Below, piece by piece: positions 100 through 21,094 of a stretch of DNA of 39,844 bases. Source of the DNA: Clostridiales bacterium (lineage in GTDB: Bacteria > Bacillota > Clostridia > Lachnospirales > Lachnospiraceae); NCBI GenBank assembly GCA_012523925.1, contig JAAYSQ010000220.1, positions 1 through 39,844 of the forward strand. The letters are read 5' to 3'. The position numbers were made by a program, and so were the translations under genes. Positions within the stretch are counted from its first letter, which is position 1, and the number at the start of each line of letters is the position of its first letter. The notes beneath the pieces were generated by a model that saw only the letters and a program-made list of their open reading frames with translations, did not search any database and had not been told where the DNA came from.

Positions 100-1344
100 A
101 TGATAACACAGAGACCGAAGGGAACACAGGACTGGTACGGTGCTCAGATGCACAAACGTACAATCATCGAAGCAGCAGCTAGAAAAATATGCAAGGCTTA
201 TAATATAAAGGAAATTATAACACCAGCATTTGAACATACGATACTTTTTCAAAGAGGTGTCGGTGAGACAACAGATGTTGTTCAAAAGGAAATGTACACT
301 TTTGAGGATAAAGGACATCGTAGTATTACATTAAAACCAGAAGGTACTGCAGGCGCTGTTCGGGCATATCTAGAAAATGGCCTATTTGCAGAGAGTCAAC
401 CAACGAAATTGTTTTATATTACACAGGCATTTCGTTATGAGAATCCGCAAAGTGGAAGACTTCGTCAACATCATCAGTTCGGTATAGAATTCTTCGGATC
501 AGCTAGTCCATTGGCTGAGGTGGAACTGATTACTTTGTTAACTGAGTTCATGAAAGATATCGGACTAAAGGGGGCAAACCTCCATATTAATAGCATTGGC
601 TGTAAGAATTGTAGAAAAACATACAATGAAGCCCTTCTTACCTTCCTAAGGCAACATGAAGAACACTTATGTTCTACCTGTAAGGAAAGAATGCAGAAGA
701 ATCCCTTGCGTGTTCTTGATTGCAAGGTTCCGTCATGCAATGAGATTGTTAAGGATGCACCAAGAACAATAGAATACCTAGATGATGAATGTAAGTCACA
801 TTTCGATGAATTGCAAAGCTTGCTAAATGAGCTTGGTATTTCTTATCAAGTTGATACTGGAATTGTTCGAGGTTTGGATTACTATACCAAGACTGTATTT
901 GAATTTGTTAATGCAGATGGTTTTACCCTCTGCGGTGGCGGTAGATATGACGGACTTATTCATGAGATAGATGAGAAGCAAGATATTCCAGCAGTAGGCT
1001 TTGGATTTGGTATCGAACGTATTATTAATGAGTTGGAGGCTGAAGGAGTAGAATTGGAGCAGGAACCATCTATACAGCTATATGTAGGTATTCTTGGAAA
1101 AGAAGCGAAAGCATCCGCATATAAGATTGTTCATCAACTTCGGAATGCAGGAGTCATCGTTGAGACGGATTATCTGGATAGAAGTGTCAAAGCTCAGATG
1201 AAATATGCCAATAAGATTGGTGCAAAGAATACGGTAATCATTGGTGCAGATGAACTTTCCAATAATACAGCTAGAGTTAAGAATATGGAAACCGGAGAGC
1301 AAACAGAGGTTGCACTGGATAAATTAGTAGAATATTTTCTCTAA
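100..1344 (+). CDS. hisS: Histidyl-tRNA synthetase
   Basis: 414 aa ORF; class II aaRS motifs ([44 protein letters not shown]); upstream purine-rich RBS (gggaggg). Confidence 0.96.
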
Positions 1345-1390
1345 TCTAATTGAATAAATCAGACACCTAAATTATAGAAAAGGTGTATAT

Positions 1391-1437
1391 AAAAAGCTGT
1401 CTTACGTAATGGGAGTTACGATAGACAGCTTTTTTAT
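1391..1437. terminator. Bidirectional intrinsic terminator between convergent hisS and tyrS
   Basis: aaaaagctgtct...agacagctttttt, with inner cgtaa/ttacg pairing and T/A runs on both sides. Confidence 0.85.
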
Positions 1438-1448
1438 TTCCAAAACAT

Positions 1449-2660
1449 TTACTTAATAATCTTAATGAACTTCTTCTTCCCTATCTTTAATACATCATTG
1501 CAGATTAATACATGGTCCAAGTCTCCCACCGTTAGCTTTTCACCGTTTAGCCTTACACCTTCTTGCCTTAAAAGACGAATAAATTCGCTACGACTATTAA
1601 CATAGTCTAACTTTATCAATGCAGGAATAATGTCATTTAAGGTATCATTTTCAAGGTCGATGATCAGCTCGGGTATTTCATCAGGAATTGCTTTCTTAGT
1701 AAAAGCAGTATTATAGAAATCCATTGCTTTCTTAAGATCATCTTCACTGTGGTATAATCCGGTAATAATTTTCGCCAAGTTAAATTTGACGTCACGAGGA
1801 TTTACGCCATTCTCCAGCTGTTCTTTGATTTTATCGATTTCATCAGGATGTTCGTCAGTCGCTAACTCAAAGTAACGGATAATTAACTGATCGGGAACTT
1901 CCATGACCTTCTTAAACATTACCTCTGCTGGTTCGTCAATACCGATGTAATTACCAAGACTTTTACTCATTTTTTGGATGCCATCTAAGCCTTCCAAAAT
2001 GGGCATGAACATGGCAACCTGCTGTTCTTGATCCATCGCCTTCTGCAATGTTCTACCCATCAGGATATTAAAGGTCTGATCCGTTCCACCTAATTCAATA
2101 TCGGCTTTTAATATGATGGAATCATAAGCTTGCATTAATGGATAGAAGAACTCATGAATCCCAATAGGAACTTGATTCTGGTATCTAGTTTGGAAATCAT
2201 CCCTCTCCAACATTCTTGCTACCGTGGTAGTAGAAGCAAGTTTAACAACATCTTCTAAAGTTAGTTTTGCAAGCCACTCACTATTAAAACGTACCTCGGT
2301 CTTATCTTTATCCAATATTTTAAATATCTGATCACAGTAGGTGGCTGCATTTTCTTTTATTTCTTCCTCACTTAGTGCTACCCGTCCTTTCGCTTTACCG
2401 GTTGGGTCGCCTATCTTACCTGTAAAGTCTCCAATAACAATGATAATCTTATGGCCTAAATCTTGCATTTGTTTCATTTTTCTAAGGACAACGGCATGAC
2501 CTAGATGAATGTCCGGCGCGGAAGGATCTAGCCCTAATTTTACAATCAATGGTTTGTTTAACTGACAGGACCTCTCTAGTTTTGCCAGTAGTTCTTCCTT
2601 GTTAACTAAAGTTTGAACGCCTTTTGTTATAATACGAAATTGTTCATTTGCTTTTAACAT
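1449..2660 (-). CDS. tyrS: Tyrosyl-tRNA synthetase
   Basis: 403 aa; LGLDPSAPDIHLGHAVVLRKM (HIGH-like), KMSKS motif, C-terminal S4 domain; upstream T-box. Confidence 0.96.
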   Translation of the reverse strand: MLKANEQFRIITKGVQTLVNKEELLAKLERSCQLNKPLIVKLGLDPSAPDIHLGHAVVLRKMKQMQDLGHKIIIVIGDFTGKIGDPTGKAKGRVALSEEEIKENAATYCDQIFKILDKDKTEVRFNSEWLAKLTLEDVVKLASTTTVARMLERDDFQTRYQNQVPIGIHEFFYPLMQAYDSIILKADIELGGTDQTFNILMGRTLQKAMDQEQQVAMFMPILEGLDGIQKMSKSLGNYIGIDEPAEVMFKKVMEVPDQLIIRYFELATDEHPDEIDKIKEQLENGVNPRDVKFNLAKIITGLYHSEDDLKKAMDFYNTAFTKKAIPDEIPELIIDLENDTLNDIIPALIKLDYVNSRSEFIRLLRQEGVRLNGEKLTVGDLDHVLICNDVLKIGKKKFIKIIK

Positions 2661-2720
2661 AATTCACATCTCCCCTAATATTTTTTAATTAAGAAATAAG
2701 CTAAGCATGAAAGAAGGTAT

Positions 2721-3030
2721 AAAAAAACTCGCCCTTTTGTTTCCAAAAGGACGAGATATCATCTCGTGTTACCACCTTAAGTTTATAAGTAACTCACATT
2801 ACTTACCTTATCAAGTACGTTATGATCAATAGGATCAATAAGATACTTTAGCACTATAACGGGTGCAGGTTCCCGTCGCATCCTACTTAGATTACTGTTC
2901 GGTGCGAAGCTCCAAGATGTATTCACAATTATTATCCATGAGCCTCTCATCAACCGGCATCTTTCTGTAAGTCTTCATAATTGCTACTTTTTCTTATCAT
3001 TGCTTTTTACTTATGCATAGATTTATATGC
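2721..3030 (-). promoter_or_regulatory. T-box leader of tyrS (tyrosine specifier UAC)
   Basis: Minus strand reads ...GTGAATACATCTTGGAG (specifier UAC = + strand 2919-2921), T-box-like AAGGTGGTAACACGAG (complement of about 2764-2779), then terminator CTCGTCCTTTTGGAAACAAAAGGGCGAGTTTTTTT (2721-2756); directly upstream of tyrS. 5' boundary approximate. Confidence 0.92.
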
Positions 3031-3298
3031 ATCTATATTCAATTGCTTTCGATATGAATTGCTAATCAATCCCTACCGAAAATTAAATTAGTAATACTAT
3101 ACGGCAAATTTCCAGATGTGTCAAGAGGATTTTTTAAGTCAGGCAATGTTCACATTGTTAATTAGGCCTGAACTGTTATTTTAATTAATTTAGACAAATA
3201 ACAATATAAATCAAATATTGACATCCCTAGCAATACCATTCATTTCACAGACAACGGTATAATTATCTTATCATACATAGATTGGGGTGTTGTTTATA

Positions 3299-5707
3299 AT
3301 GCAATATGGTTACTTTGATAATGATCATAGGGAATATGTAATTGAGAGAATGGATTTACCTACATCATGGACAAATTACTTAGGAGTTAAAGATATGTGT
3401 GCCGTTGTTAACCATACGGCAGGAGGCTATGTCTTCTATAAATCTCCACAATATCACCGGATTACACGCTTTCGCGCCAACAGTATTCCAATGGATCGGC
3501 CGGGGCATTATGTATACCTTAGGGATGATGAGACAGGCGATTATTGGAGTGTTTCTTGGCAGCCGGTGGGGAAGTCGCTAGAGGAGGCGAAGTATCAGTG
3601 TCGCCATGGTTTATCCTATACGAAATATCTATGTGAATATAGCAATATAAAAGCTGAACAAACTCTATTCATACCTATCGATGACCCAGTTGAATTATGG
3701 GATGTCAAGATACAGAATGCAGATACAAAAGAAAGAAGTTTAAGTATATTTTCATATTGTGAATTTTCATATCATCATATTGACATGGATAATCAAAATT
3801 TTCAGATGAGTAATTATGCGGCTGGCTCTTCCTATGAAGATGGTATTATTGAGCATGATTTATTCTATGAGGAGTTTGGGTATCAGTATTTTACTGCAAA
3901 TGTAATGCCGGATGGATTTGATTGTTTGCGGGATAAATTTATTGGACTTTATCGCACAGAAGATAATCCGATTGCTGTTGAGAAAGGGAATTGCAGCGGT
4001 AGTTTTGAAAAGGGGAATAATCATTGTGGAACTTTACATAAAAAGTTAGTTTTAAAACCAGGCGAAGAAATGCGTATTGTATTTATGTTAGGTGAAGGAA
4101 ATCGTAAAGCAGGGGAGAAAATCCGAAGCAAATATTCGGATCTAGGCAATGTAGATATTGCATTCCAGCAATTAGCGGATTTCTGGACGAAAAAACTTGA
4201 AAAATTTCAGATAAGTACACCGAATGATGGAATGAATACCTTGATTAATCAATGGAATTTATATCAAGCGGAGATTAACGTAATGTTTTCTAGATTTGCC
4301 TCTTTTATAGAGGTTGGTGGTAGAACAGGTCTTGGATATAGGGATACAGCGCAGGATGCAATGACAATTCCTCATTCAAACCCAAGGAAATGCCGTCAGA
4401 GAATTATGGAATTGTTGCGGGCATTAGTATCCAAAGGCTATGGCCTTCATTTATTCCAGCCGGAGTGGTTTGAACCTGACAAGGAAGTAAAGCCATTTAA
4501 GTCACCTACTGTTATACCTGAGCCTAATAAAGATGATATTATCCATGGAATTGATCAAGCATGTTCTGATGACGCTCTTTGGCTAGTTAGTGCTATTGTT
4601 GAATATGTTAAGGAGACCGGCGAACTATCTTTTCTGGATGAAGTGATAACCTATGCCGATGGTGGTAGTGGAACGGTTTATGAGCATATGACTAGAATAC
4701 TTGATTTTTCAGACGAACAAATCGGAGCAAATGGTATATGTAAGGGCCTAAGAGCGGATTGGAATGACTGCTTAAATCTTGGCGGTGGAGAAAGTGCCAT
4801 GGTTTCCTTCCTTCATTATTGGGCTTTAGGGAATTTCATTGAAGTAGCAACTTATCTAGGACGCAAGGAAGATGTCACCAAATATGCTTCCATGCAGGCT
4901 AGGGTCAAAGAAACCTGCGAGAAAGTACTTTGGGATAAAGAATGGTACATTCGAGGTATTACAAAGAATGGCAAAAAGATTGGCACCAGTGAAGACAAAG
5001 AAGGGAAAATCCATCTAGAATCTAATGCCTGGGCGGTACTTTCTGGTCTGGCAACTAAAGAAAGAGGAATAATGGCTATGGATTCCGTTGATCACTATCT
5101 ATATACACCTTATGGAATTATGCTAAATGGTCCTTCTTATACAGTACCCGATGATGATATAGGATTTGTAACCAGGGTTTATCCAGGTTTAAAGGAAAAT
5201 GGTGCAATCTTTAGTCACCCAAATCCATGGGCTTGGGCAGCAGAATGTATATTAGGTCGTGGGGATCGTGCGATGAAGTTTTATGATGCACTATGTCCTT
5301 ATTATCAAAATGATAAGATTGAGATACGAGAGGCGGAACCCTATTCTTATTGTCAATTTATTGTAGGTAAGGATCATACTGCCTTTGGCCGTGCAAGACA
5401 TCCCTTTATGACTGGAACCGCAGGATGGGCATATTTTTCAGCTACAAGGTATCTTCTTGGCATTCGCCCTGAATTAGATTCTCTACGGATTGATCCTTGC
5501 ATACCAGCAGAATGGGAAAAGTTTACGGTTCGTCGTGAATGGAGGGGAGCCTTCTATAATATTACAGTCCTGAATCCAGACAAAGTCATGAAGGGGGTCC
5601 AGTCGATTCAATTAAACGGCACCAATGTAGATCGTATCGATGTACAGCCAAAAGGCAGCGAGAATGAAGTTATTGTAATTATGGGCAATCGTAAGGAGGC
5701 TACCTAA
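3299..5707 (+). CDS. GH94 phosphorylase, probable N,N'-diacetylchitobiose phosphorylase-type
   Basis: About 802 aa from ATG 3299 (track start 3287 is GTG); MQYGYFDNDHREYVI, NHTAGGYVFY, GHYVYLRDDETGDYWSVSWQPV, GYRDTAQDAMTIPHSNP, GLRADWNDCLNLGGGES. These match the ChbP-type GH94 pattern as I remember it rather than the cellobiose phosphorylase GFRDSNQD pattern. Confidence 0.85.
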   Translation: MQYGYFDNDHREYVIERMDLPTSWTNYLGVKDMCAVVNHTAGGYVFYKSPQYHRITRFRANSIPMDRPGHYVYLRDDETGDYWSVSWQPVGKSLEEAKYQCRHGLSYTKYLCEYSNIKAEQTLFIPIDDPVELWDVKIQNADTKERSLSIFSYCEFSYHHIDMDNQNFQMSNYAAGSSYEDGIIEHDLFYEEFGYQYFTANVMPDGFDCLRDKFIGLYRTEDNPIAVEKGNCSGSFEKGNNHCGTLHKKLVLKPGEEMRIVFMLGEGNRKAGEKIRSKYSDLGNVDIAFQQLADFWTKKLEKFQISTPNDGMNTLINQWNLYQAEINVMFSRFASFIEVGGRTGLGYRDTAQDAMTIPHSNPRKCRQRIMELLRALVSKGYGLHLFQPEWFEPDKEVKPFKSPTVIPEPNKDDIIHGIDQACSDDALWLVSAIVEYVKETGELSFLDEVITYADGGSGTVYEHMTRILDFSDEQIGANGICKGLRADWNDCLNLGGGESAMVSFLHYWALGNFIEVATYLGRKEDVTKYASMQARVKETCEKVLWDKEWYIRGITKNGKKIGTSEDKEGKIHLESNAWAVLSGLATKERGIMAMDSVDHYLYTPYGIMLNGPSYTVPDDDIGFVTRVYPGLKENGAIFSHPNPWAWAAECILGRGDRAMKFYDALCPYYQNDKIEIREAEPYSYCQFIVGKDHTAFGRARHPFMTGTAGWAYFSATRYLLGIRPELDSLRIDPCIPAEWEKFTVRREWRGAFYNITVLNPDKVMKGVQSIQLNGTNVDRIDVQPKGSENEVIVIMGNRKEAT

Positions 5708-17931: not shown

Positions 17932-17960
17932 TTGACAATGCTAAGAAAGAATGTTATGAT
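17932..17960 (+). promoter_or_regulatory. Consensus sigma-A promoter of the csp gene
   Basis: TTGACA (17932-17937), 17 bp spacer, TATGAT (17955-17960). Confidence 0.85.
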
Positions 17961-17966
17961 AACTGT

Positions 17967-17986
17967 GTTGTTGAATAGTCAACAAC
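17967..17986 (+). other. 5'-UTR hairpin of csp mRNA
   Basis: GTTGTTGA-ATAG-TCAACAAC, perfect 8 bp stem with tetranucleotide loop, starting about 7 nt after the -10 box. Confidence 0.75.
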
Positions 17987-18015
17987 CAATTTATTATTTT
18001 TTGGAGGAATTATAC

Positions 18016-18216
18016 ATGAACAAAGGTACAGTTAAGTGGTTTAACAACCAAAAAGGATTTGGATTTATCTCTGATGAATCAGGCAACGATGTATTCGTAC
18101 ACTACACAGGTCTTAACATGGAAGGTTTCAAATCTTTAGAAGAAGGCCAAGAAGTTGAGTTTGAAGTAGTTCAGGGAGCTAAAGGTCCTCAGGCAACTAA
18201 CGTAACAAGACTATAA
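18016..18216 (+). CDS. Cold-shock domain protein (CspA family)
   Basis: 66 aa [36 protein letters not shown] tggaggaa; ATG 18016, since the longer track ORF reads through the promoter. Confidence 0.96.
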
Positions 18217-18366: not shown

Positions 18367-18404
18367 TAATTCAATAAGCTTCCCGATGGTTAGCTTGTAC
18401 AGAC

Positions 18405-18437
18405 AAAAGCCACCTTATCATTGATAATGTGGCTTTA
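18405..18437 (-). terminator. Intrinsic terminator of the DUF4430/ECF operon
   Basis: Minus strand AAAGCCACATTATCAATGATAAGGTGGCTTTT. Confidence 0.75.
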
Positions 18438-18442
18438 AATAA

Positions 18443-18934
18443 TTATTCTATATATAAAATATTAAGTAACTTATAAATAGGTCGTAATAAAATCAATGCA
18501 ACAAGAAAATTACTAATTGCATGGATAATATCAAAGGGAATACCACTAACCCAATAAGCAAGACCGGTGGGGATACCGCCGGTAAGAAAATAGGGAATGG
18601 AGCATAGCGCTCCGAAGCTTAGACCATAGACTCCGGAGACAATTGCCCAGAAAAGTGGGGAGCTTTTTCTTCGAAAGAGTATCGTTACAATAAATAGAAT
18701 GGTCCATACATATAGGTAATTAATCCACCATAAATGGAATCCATAGATAAAACCTTCCAAGAGGACAAAGATATAGATAATATAAAGTGTTTTATAGCCA
18801 AATACCAAGGTAAATACAATGATAAGTAACGATATAAGTTCTACATTGGGCAGAGGTAGTACAGCCATTGCAACTTGTATCGCAACCATAATTGCACTCA
18901 TCATTCCGATTATTACCACATCTTTTATCTTCAT
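18443..18934 (-). CDS. ECF transporter S-component-like membrane protein
   Basis: 163 aa, about 5-6 TM segments, N-terminal KIKDVVIIGMMSAIMVAIQVAMAVLP and VELISLLIIVFTLVFGYKT typical of ECF S-components; downstream of a cobalamin riboswitch and DUF4430 gene. Confidence 0.8.
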   Translation of the reverse strand: MKIKDVVIIGMMSAIMVAIQVAMAVLPLPNVELISLLIIVFTLVFGYKTLYIIYIFVLLEGFIYGFHLWWINYLYVWTILFIVTILFRRKSSPLFWAIVSGVYGLSFGALCSIPYFLTGGIPTGLAYWVSGIPFDIIHAISNFLVALILLRPIYKLLNILYIE

Positions 18935-19015
18935 CCTTAATTCCTAACTTTTATTACGAAATAAAAATCAATATAAATATAAAATTAATACAATAATAAT
19001 ATTATTCTAGTACAT

Positions 19016-19420
19016 TTAGAAACCAATCATTAATGTTAATTCGAATTTATCTCCATCCTGAATCGGAGTCTCGTCAACGCCAGTAAAGACATCTTCACCG
19101 TCCTTGGTGATACACCACCATTCCTCTTTGGCACCGTCCGCCTCACGGCCATTAACACCTGTGATAAAGAAGCCGTACTCGCTATCAGAACCTTCTATTA
19201 ATTGCTCCTCATCCAATGCCTGGCGAAGGTAATCGGCATCCGTAAATAGGGTGTATTCTTTGGTTTCCTCCTCCGGAATTATTATTTCTATAGTTACTTC
19301 CTTGGAACCCTTTACAGCTTTCGGTTTGAATTGATTATAAACCAATCCCAATACAATAATTAGTGCTGCAAATATAACAACAGCTAGGATTGATTTGGTA
19401 TAATTCTTTTTATTATTCAT
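19016..19420 (-). CDS. Membrane-anchored DUF4430 (transcobalamin-like C-terminal) domain protein
   Basis: 134 aa; N-terminal TM; KEVTIEIIIPEEETKEYTLFTDADYLRQALDEEQLIEGSDSEYGFFITGVNG...EWWCITKDGEDVFTGVDETPIQDGDKFELTLMIGF matches the DUF4430 pattern. Confidence 0.85.
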   Translation of the reverse strand: MNNKKNYTKSILAVVIFAALIIVLGLVYNQFKPKAVKGSKEVTIEIIIPEEETKEYTLFTDADYLRQALDEEQLIEGSDSEYGFFITGVNGREADGAKEEWWCITKDGEDVFTGVDETPIQDGDKFELTLMIGF

Positions 19421-19471
19421 TTTTTCTCCTTTCCTTAAAATAACTTAGTTAATAGCAAAACATAATACTAA

Positions 19472-19504
19472 CAAAAAAACCTTTCTCCACAATAGGAAAA
19501 AGGT
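19472..19504 (-). terminator. Rho-independent terminator of the cobalamin riboswitch expression platform
   Basis: Minus strand ACCTTTTTCC-TATTGT-GGAGAAAGGT-TTTTTT between riboswitch and DUF4430 gene. Confidence 0.85.
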
Positions 19505-19559
19505 CAATAAAATACATCTGTGCACAGATTATTAATTATACCTTTGTCCAAACCTCGTG

Positions 19560-19805
19560 GATCCATGGTATAGATTTTAAGCAGGTATTCTGACTTATGG
19601 ATCATTGCTTCCTTCATAACCTTCCCAGAATAACATTGATTACGATTTCTCGTAAATTAGTTTCCAGTGATTTTTCCAAGGATTTACCTTGTTGAAGGGC
19701 GCTCCCCAATTACAGCGGCGAGACCGTACAGGATTCTAACCTGTTTCCCTATTATGTCGGATACTTGCGGATATGTATAAATATCAACTTTTAGTACCTG
19801 ACCAC
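19560..19805 (-). promoter_or_regulatory. Cobalamin riboswitch
   Basis: Minus strand contains AATAGGGAAACAGGTTAGAATCCTGTACGGTCTCGCCGCTGTAA ... CACTGG ... CTGGGAAGG ... AGTCAGAATACCTGC (B12 box, + strand 19581-19595). Confidence 0.95.
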
Positions 19806-20035
19806 TTAAAATCCACTATATTTTGTTTGGTTTATAGTATATCACTGACCTTTTCGTGAGTCAATCCTAAAATAATTTTACGGTCTTGAAAAGGTTTTAG
19901 CTCTATTGAAAAAGTATATTATAGTCAAAGTAAATAGAAGATAATTTGACCTCAATAATATTTATTATTCTGCTAAAATATGCTATAATCGATTCATTAG
20001 AAATACAAGAATACATGCATAATAAGGAGTTAATA

Positions 20036-21094
20036 ATGAAAATCAATCAAACTTTATTTGGAAAAACAAAAAATGGAGAGGAGGCATACCTATATACTTT
20101 AACAAATCAGAACGGCATGGAGGTTTCCTTTACCAACTATGGCGCTTGCATAGTAAGTATAATCGTTCCGGATGCGAAAGGTGAAAAGGCAGATGTTGCT
20201 TTAGGTTTTAAGAACATAGAAGGTTATGAGGAAAATGAACCAGGATTTGGAGCATTTATCGGAAGATATGCTAATCGCATTAGTGATGGTAAAATTGAGA
20301 TAAATGGCAAAGTTTATGAACTAGAAAAGAACGATGGTGAAAACACTCTTCATGGAGGAGTTAAAGGATATAATAATTTCTTATATGAAACAGAAGTATT
20401 CAGGGATGAGGATATGATTAGCATAGAGTTCTCAAGATTGAGCCCTCATATGGAACAAGGCTTCCCAGGAAACCTTGATATTACGGTAACTTATAGTTTG
20501 ACACAAACGAATGAGTTAATGATTGAATACCATGCGGTATCAGACAAGGATACAGTAATTAATCTAACAAATCACTGCTATTTTAATCTTGCAGGACATA
20601 ATTCTGGTACAATATTAGATCACAATCTGATGATTAAGGCTAATAAATTTACACCAACTAGAGAGGATTTAATTCCTACGGGTGAGATTTGGGATGTTGA
20701 AGGAACGCCAATGGATTTTAGAACCCTAAAACGAATTGGTCAAGATATTAATGCAGATTATGAACCACTTCGCATTGCAGATGGTTACGATCATAATTAT
20801 GTCCTTGATATCAATGGAACGGATGTAGAAAAGGTTGCAGAACTGGTTGAAGAGAATAGCCAAAGGGTTATGGAGGTATTTACAGACCTACCAGGCATGC
20901 AGTTATATACAGCTAATATGTTAACCCCGGTGAAGAATAGTAAAGATGATGCTATTTATAAGAAACAAGATGCAATATGTTTTGAGACACAGTTTTTCCC
21001 GAATTCCTGCAATACCAGTAACTTCTCTTCTAGTTTGTTAAAAGCGGGGCAACCATTTGAATCAGTGACAATTTATAAGTTTTCTACCAAATAA
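20036..21094 (+). CDS. galM: Aldose 1-epimerase
   Basis: About 352 aa from ATG 20036 (aaggag RBS); TNYGACIVSIIVPD, GFGAFIGRYANRI, LHGG, NLTNHCYFNLAG, GYDHNYVLD, CFETQFFPNSCN. Confidence 0.93.
   Translation: MKINQTLFGKTKNGEEAYLYTLTNQNGMEVSFTNYGACIVSIIVPDAKGEKADVALGFKNIEGYEENEPGFGAFIGRYANRISDGKIEINGKVYELEKNDGENTLHGGVKGYNNFLYETEVFRDEDMISIEFSRLSPHMEQGFPGNLDITVTYSLTQTNELMIEYHAVSDKDTVINLTNHCYFNLAGHNSGTILDHNLMIKANKFTPTREDLIPTGEIWDVEGTPMDFRTLKRIGQDINADYEPLRIADGYDHNYVLDINGTDVEKVAELVEENSQRVMEVFTDLPGMQLYTANMLTPVKNSKDDAIYKKQDAICFETQFFPNSCNTSNFSSSLLKAGQPFESVTIYKFSTK

Follow-up and report, generated by a model that had tools for sequence, protein, structure and literature searches.

The question raised by this locus is what two small proteins encoded behind a cobalamin riboswitch do together, and in particular what a predicted extracellular DUF4430 protein would contribute next to an ECF S-component. 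The operon lies on the minus strand of a stretch of 39,844 nucleotides from Clostridiales bacterium (GCA_012523925.1, contig JAAYSQ010000220.1); this whole stretch was analyzed and is referred to as the window. A first-pass annotation had read the locus as a corrinoid-uptake module with a shared energizing module encoded elsewhere.

The cobalamin riboswitch aptamer (RF00174) matches the full model at positions 19563-19821 with 83.1 bits (E = 3.5e-19), far above the gathering cutoff of 31.5 bits, and it is the sole cobalamin riboswitch detected in this 85% complete genome. The first-pass annotation was thus correct on the presence and strand of the riboswitch; its limit at 19805 was too short, however, as the 5' start of the aptamer is found about 16 nucleotides further, at 19821. 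The intrinsic terminator that had been proposed as the expression platform (19472-19504, minus strand) consists of a 10-bp stem followed by a T run (-13.3 kcal/mol, z = -4.4 relative to shuffles). A predicted antiterminator (19487-19560, minus strand) appears in the minimum-energy fold of 19560-19465 (-22.7 kcal/mol) and would compete with the terminator for its 5' arm. When extra upstream sequence is included in the folding, the terminator prevails: TATACC (19572-19567) pairs with GGTATA (19542-19537), so that the antiterminator is prevented from forming. The predicted folds agree with an OFF switch, in which the ligand would shift the balance between the two structures. Downstream of this leader, the minus strand encodes the 134-aa DUF4430 protein (19016-19420) and, after a spacer of 81 nucleotides, the 163-aa S-component (18443-18934), followed by the operon terminator already noted in the earlier reading (about 18400-18440; -14.0 kcal/mol, z = -4.0). 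Both flanking ORFs, judged by reading to be cold-shock-like (17932-18216) and aldose-epimerase-like (19946-21094), are on the opposite strand; therefore, the riboswitch operon is a two-gene unit. Elsewhere in the window, there is a T-box leader on the minus strand (2744-3009, 117 bits).

The 163-aa membrane protein alone has no match in Pfam or NCBIfam, and Pfam searches across 45 homologues produced weak ECF_trnsprt matches only; the family assignment thus rests on a profile built from these 45 homologues. This profile has one significant PDB chain, 6fnp_A (E = 2.3e-22), matched at profile positions 3-161, i.e., over the full length. The 6FNP structure is that of the S-component of Lactobacillus delbrueckii ECF-CbrT, which moves cobalamin and cobinamide together with the ECF module (PMC5997447). 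A distant homologue in locus L158 exceeds the Pfam ECF_trnsprt cutoff, and the motifs that are kept family-wide and are seen in CbrT include PN(I/V), GFG-W, and YWVSG--FD--H---N. The AlphaFold model of the protein has a pLDDT of 95.8, and the top four matches in Foldseek are all ECF S-components (4huq, 7nnt, 4hzu, and 6zg3), with TM scores of at most 0.72 and weak E-values of at least 0.07; 6FNP is not among the matches listed in that search. By homology, the S gene belongs to the CbrT family, which sharpens the earlier description of an S-component-like membrane protein.

The shared EcfA/T module that was expected elsewhere in the genome is located on contig C27 (L135), where EcfA, EcfA', EcfT, and TruA are encoded in a row (TIGR04520, TIGR04521, CbiQ/EcfT, and TruA); each of the 24 genomes tested has a protein of the EcfT/CbiQ family. 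The host encodes a MetH-type, cobalamin-dependent methionine synthase with B12-binding domains, as well as a B12-binding radical-SAM protein. It should be noted that, because the genome is 85% complete, absences in the host are provisional. With this reservation, CbiD was found neither in the host genome nor in 30 of the 33 congeners, a result that speaks against corrin being made de novo in the host. The sole FecCD locus of the host genome encodes two permeases and a binding protein; we set it aside as a candidate BtuCDF, the binding protein being SstD-like, i.e., of the siderophore type. FecCD permeases were not found in several well-covered congeners that carry the DUF4430-CbrT pair (G005, G010, and G019), and the two well-covered congeners without the pair (G001 and G004) do carry them; small as these numbers are, they fit the earlier suggestion that the pair serves as an alternative to BtuCDF.

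The 134-aa protein matches PF14478 (DUF4430) with E = 3.4e-8, above the curated cutoff, and its predicted structure contains a TM helix at residues 6-31; since a basic N-terminus precedes this helix, the DUF4430 domain is predicted to be outside. The TM-anchored DUF4430 protein of the earlier annotation is therefore retained. In L158 and L165, the N-terminus of the DUF4430 protein resembles, by reading, a lipoprotein signal and not a TM helix, so the membrane tether seems to be conserved, with its type variable among the sequences. A profile built from 43 homologues recovered 3u7z (E = 6.1e-42) and human transcobalamin-1 (4kki, E = 2.9e-4), the latter with an alignment built without 4kki. The structural model (pLDDT 90.5) has 3u7z as its nearest fold (TM 0.96 on the target, 46% identity), followed by 17 chains of transcobalamin (TC), haptocorrin (HC), and intrinsic factor (IF) with E-values from 2.6e-7 to 2.1e-5, whereas unrelated ubiquitin-like proteins enter the list only at E = 0.014. 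Sequence and predicted fold agree in making the domain a homologue of the beta domain found in haptocorrin, transcobalamin, and intrinsic factor (4kki, 5np4, and 2pmv); the first-pass annotation had given its resemblance to the C-terminal domain of transcobalamin as established. Unlike these carriers, the protein studied here is bacterial and membrane-tethered, its proposed partner is an S-component, and the alpha/alpha-toroid (alpha) domain of a complete transcobalamin is absent from the two-gene operon. Among the fold matches is 5np4, a structure of the human TC beta domain on its own with cyanocobalamin; this isolated domain has also been shown with bound cobinamide, and the alpha and beta domains of TC assemble only when cobalamin is present (PMC5599065). 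The alignment of 43 DUF4430 homologues shows invariant G, K, T, L, and W residues but lacks a conserved set of metal ligands, and Pfam detected no wall-binding domain in the 134-aa protein.

The first-pass annotation had suggested comparative genomics of the co-occurrence of riboswitch, DUF4430, and ECF genes. We ran the CbrT profile (threshold >100 bits) and the DUF4430 profile (>77 bits) independently on 195 related genomes, and detected 63 and 62 genes, respectively. All 62 DUF4430 genes directly adjoin a CbrT gene, and 62 of the 63 CbrT genes adjoin a DUF4430 gene; the lone exception (G134) starts about 240 nucleotides from a contig end. In a second collection, in which loci were found with the CbrT protein, DUF4430 is immediately upstream in 45 of 47 cases, and of the two exceptions one is a truncated frame (L047) and the other a divergent gene of Romboutsia (L048). 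A phylum sample of 399 genomes contains DUF4430 at 12 of 13 further CbrT matches above 60 bits; the three sets possibly overlap in species. The DUF4430-CbrT pair is near-obligate. The distance correlation between the two proteins is 0.60, a value that common ancestry by itself could produce, and we therefore give it no weight. A cobalamin riboswitch was found upstream in 18 of 20 same-genus loci (at L072, one of the two misses, the sequence ends a short distance upstream of the gene), and an Rfam-detectable one in about half of the more distant pair loci. The pairs without a riboswitch at the Rfam gathering cutoff are L013, L016, L019, L020, L024, L028-L037, L039, L041, L045, and L046; at L020, a divergent ORF adjoining the pair resembles, by reading, MetF.

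The gene neighborhoods point in the same direction. At L158 (627-2667), a cobalamin riboswitch is followed by a lipoprotein-like DUF4430 gene, the S gene, and a cobalamin adenosyltransferase (PF01923, E = 1.6e-61). Together with the full-length homology to CbrT and the riboswitches of the same-genus loci, this arrangement gives good support to the predicted uptake of corrinoid via the ECF S-component, and the corrinoid-uptake module of the first-pass annotation is upheld to this extent. At L040, the ORF right after the S gene (2678-3217) overlaps it and resembles, by reading, a RamA-type corrinoid-protein activator.

Weaker S matches (28-55 bits) represent a separate subfamily of about 200-235 aa, or S-components fused behind two ATPase domains (770-950 aa). 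The wider regions of this second subfamily bring together DUF4430 (in 12 of 13 cases), an EcfT-like protein, ATPase domains, and the S-component. Such sister operons are found at L136, L138-L141, and L143-L148 (e.g., L138:3674-8479 minus, L141:4495-9405 plus, and L136:4283-9810 minus), and 3 of the 7 sister loci searched (L136, L138, and L140) have cobalamin riboswitches. Several of them encode a separate protein of about 290-340 aa ahead of DUF4430, which matches the prenyltransferase alpha/alpha toroid (PF00432) in L139, L141, and L148 (below the cutoff in L141), and L136 encodes a single 592-aa protein with both a toroid match (below the cutoff) and DUF4430. A toroid half followed by a beta domain is the layout of transcobalamin and intrinsic factor. 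Judged by these domain matches, the toroid-bearing sister operons encode both transcobalamin halves next to a dedicated ECF transporter. With DUF4430 thus linked to two putative B12 S-component subfamilies, a corrinoid role becomes more likely. Fusions of two ABC ATPase domains and a CbrT-like S-component within one polypeptide were seen at L091:1391-3907, L097:3269-5764, and L144:8998-11436. L138 also encodes a surface protein of 1095 aa (270-3557, minus) that combines an SLH domain with DUF4430 and beta-propeller-like repeats; it is located after a cobalamin riboswitch (L138:3456-3623) and could possibly be a surface corrinoid binder.

Taken as a whole, the locus is probably a cobalamin-repressed corrinoid-uptake operon, in which CbrT works with EcfAA'T and a tethered, beta-like DUF4430 domain captures corrinoid and delivers it to the transporter or clamps it there. 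Cobalamin would cause premature transcription termination and turn the operon off; when corrinoid is scarce, the leader would be read through and both proteins would be produced. On the outer face of the membrane, the DUF4430 domain, held by one TM helix, would bind corrinoid with modest affinity and concentrate it there, and would then deliver it to, or clamp it onto, the outward-facing CbrT. The corrinoid-loaded CbrT would dock on the housekeeping EcfAA'T and release corrinoid inside. We infer that DUF4430 binds corrinoid, touches CbrT, and hands the ligand over, much like the TC beta domain, which joins the alpha domain only with B12 present; that the ligand drives the switch is likewise inferred. 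The DUF4430 step is the weak link of this mechanism, because the L. delbrueckii CbrT works in liposomes without DUF4430 (PMC5997447). Two further facts count against the explanation as a whole: the beta domain of TC provides just half of a B12 site, and about half of the distant loci are without an Rfam-detectable cobalamin riboswitch. A bolder idea, which we hold tentatively and lean slightly against, is that the tethered beta domain and CbrT form a B12 clamp like the alpha and beta domains of TC, that the toroid and DUF4430 proteins of the sister operons are a two-part transcobalamin feeding a dedicated ECF transporter, and that the ECF B12 importers of Bacillota thus employ bacterial counterparts of the vertebrate B12 carriers as their extracellular receptors. 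If true, the ECF importer would have a partner that binds its substrate.

The near-obligate pairing is equally expected of a structural subunit, and DUF4430 could be an accessory protein that stabilizes, orients, or gates CbrT and does not itself bind corrinoid; the toppling of S-components in the membrane and the instability of apo-CbrT in detergent (PMC5997447) would be in keeping with such a role. We consider this explanation unlikely, since the homology of DUF4430 is specific to the B12-holding domain of B12 carriers, and since in the sister operons DUF4430 accompanies toroid proteins, a combination that full transcobalamins also show. DUF4430 might instead anchor the transporter at the cell wall or surface and have no part in corrinoid handling; the DUF4430 domain of the large SLH-domain surface protein (L138:270-3557) points to surface roles for some family members. 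However, that same protein sits behind a cobalamin riboswitch, and the 134-aa protein lacks a wall-binding domain, so we find such a role very improbable. Other riboswitch-linked S-components have been proposed to transport precursors of the alpha-ribazole or dimethylbenzimidazole type, which favors import of a corrinoid precursor or a lower-ligand base, and not of whole cobamides, by the present module. CbrT moves cobinamide as well (PMC5997447); however, the S family here is CbrT itself and a free base would hardly benefit a host where corrin synthesis appears to be absent, which leaves this possibility with hardly any weight. Import of cobalt or another metal, with DUF4430 as a metal-binding protein, agrees with the title of 3U7Z and with the location of cobalt transporters under cobalamin riboswitches (PMC3766115), but can practically be dismissed given the match of the S-component to CbrT over its whole length, the lack of CbiD in the host genome searched, and the composition of the invariant DUF4430 residues.

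The preferred explanation, corrinoid uptake with capture by DUF4430, can be compared with known systems. ECF-CbrT of L. delbrueckii (6FNP) shares with the present system the full-length homology of the S-component, the shared EcfAA'T module, and B12 as the inferred substrate; the reconstituted transporter works without DUF4430 (PMC5997447), whereas here DUF4430 is near-obligate and under a cobalamin riboswitch. BtuCDF likewise imports B12 with an extracytoplasmic partner, a likeness that holds if DUF4430 binds corrinoid, but its permease and binding-protein folds are unrelated. The solved bacterial structure 3U7Z (RUMGNA_00854, Ruminococcus gnavus), of the same family as the 134-aa protein, was deposited as a "putative metal binding protein" without a physiological role. 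A proteomic study of L. rhamnosus reported the DUF4430 protein LGG_02295, of unknown function, near rtpR, and a table in the same paper names an "Additional lipoprotein component of putative cobalamin ECF transporter" (PMC9963975); these are likely to be the same protein. The anchor is of the lipoprotein type there and a TM helix here, and the link in that study is an annotation. The connection between DUF4430 and cobalamin ECF transporters is thus already present in annotation. In the openly accessible literature, outside of which most subscription papers lie, we found no experiment on this link and no account of toroid-DUF4430-ECF operons. As far as we found, the CbrT partner is an accessory protein that has already been named and apparently not characterized before.

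ECF importers are described as catching the substrate by the membrane S-component itself, and a near-obligate extracellular partner akin to the domain of human B12 carriers would add a receptor step to this mechanism. Finding the B12 transporters of many gut bacteria has been called an open problem (PMC6593275). Since both proteins of the pair are small, expressible targets, and a crystal structure has already been deposited for one of them (3U7Z), the question can be tested at once. A further DUF4430 relative (53% identity) was seen at OY725838.1:105873-106184, a record of Subdoligranulum variabile in a plasmid collection.
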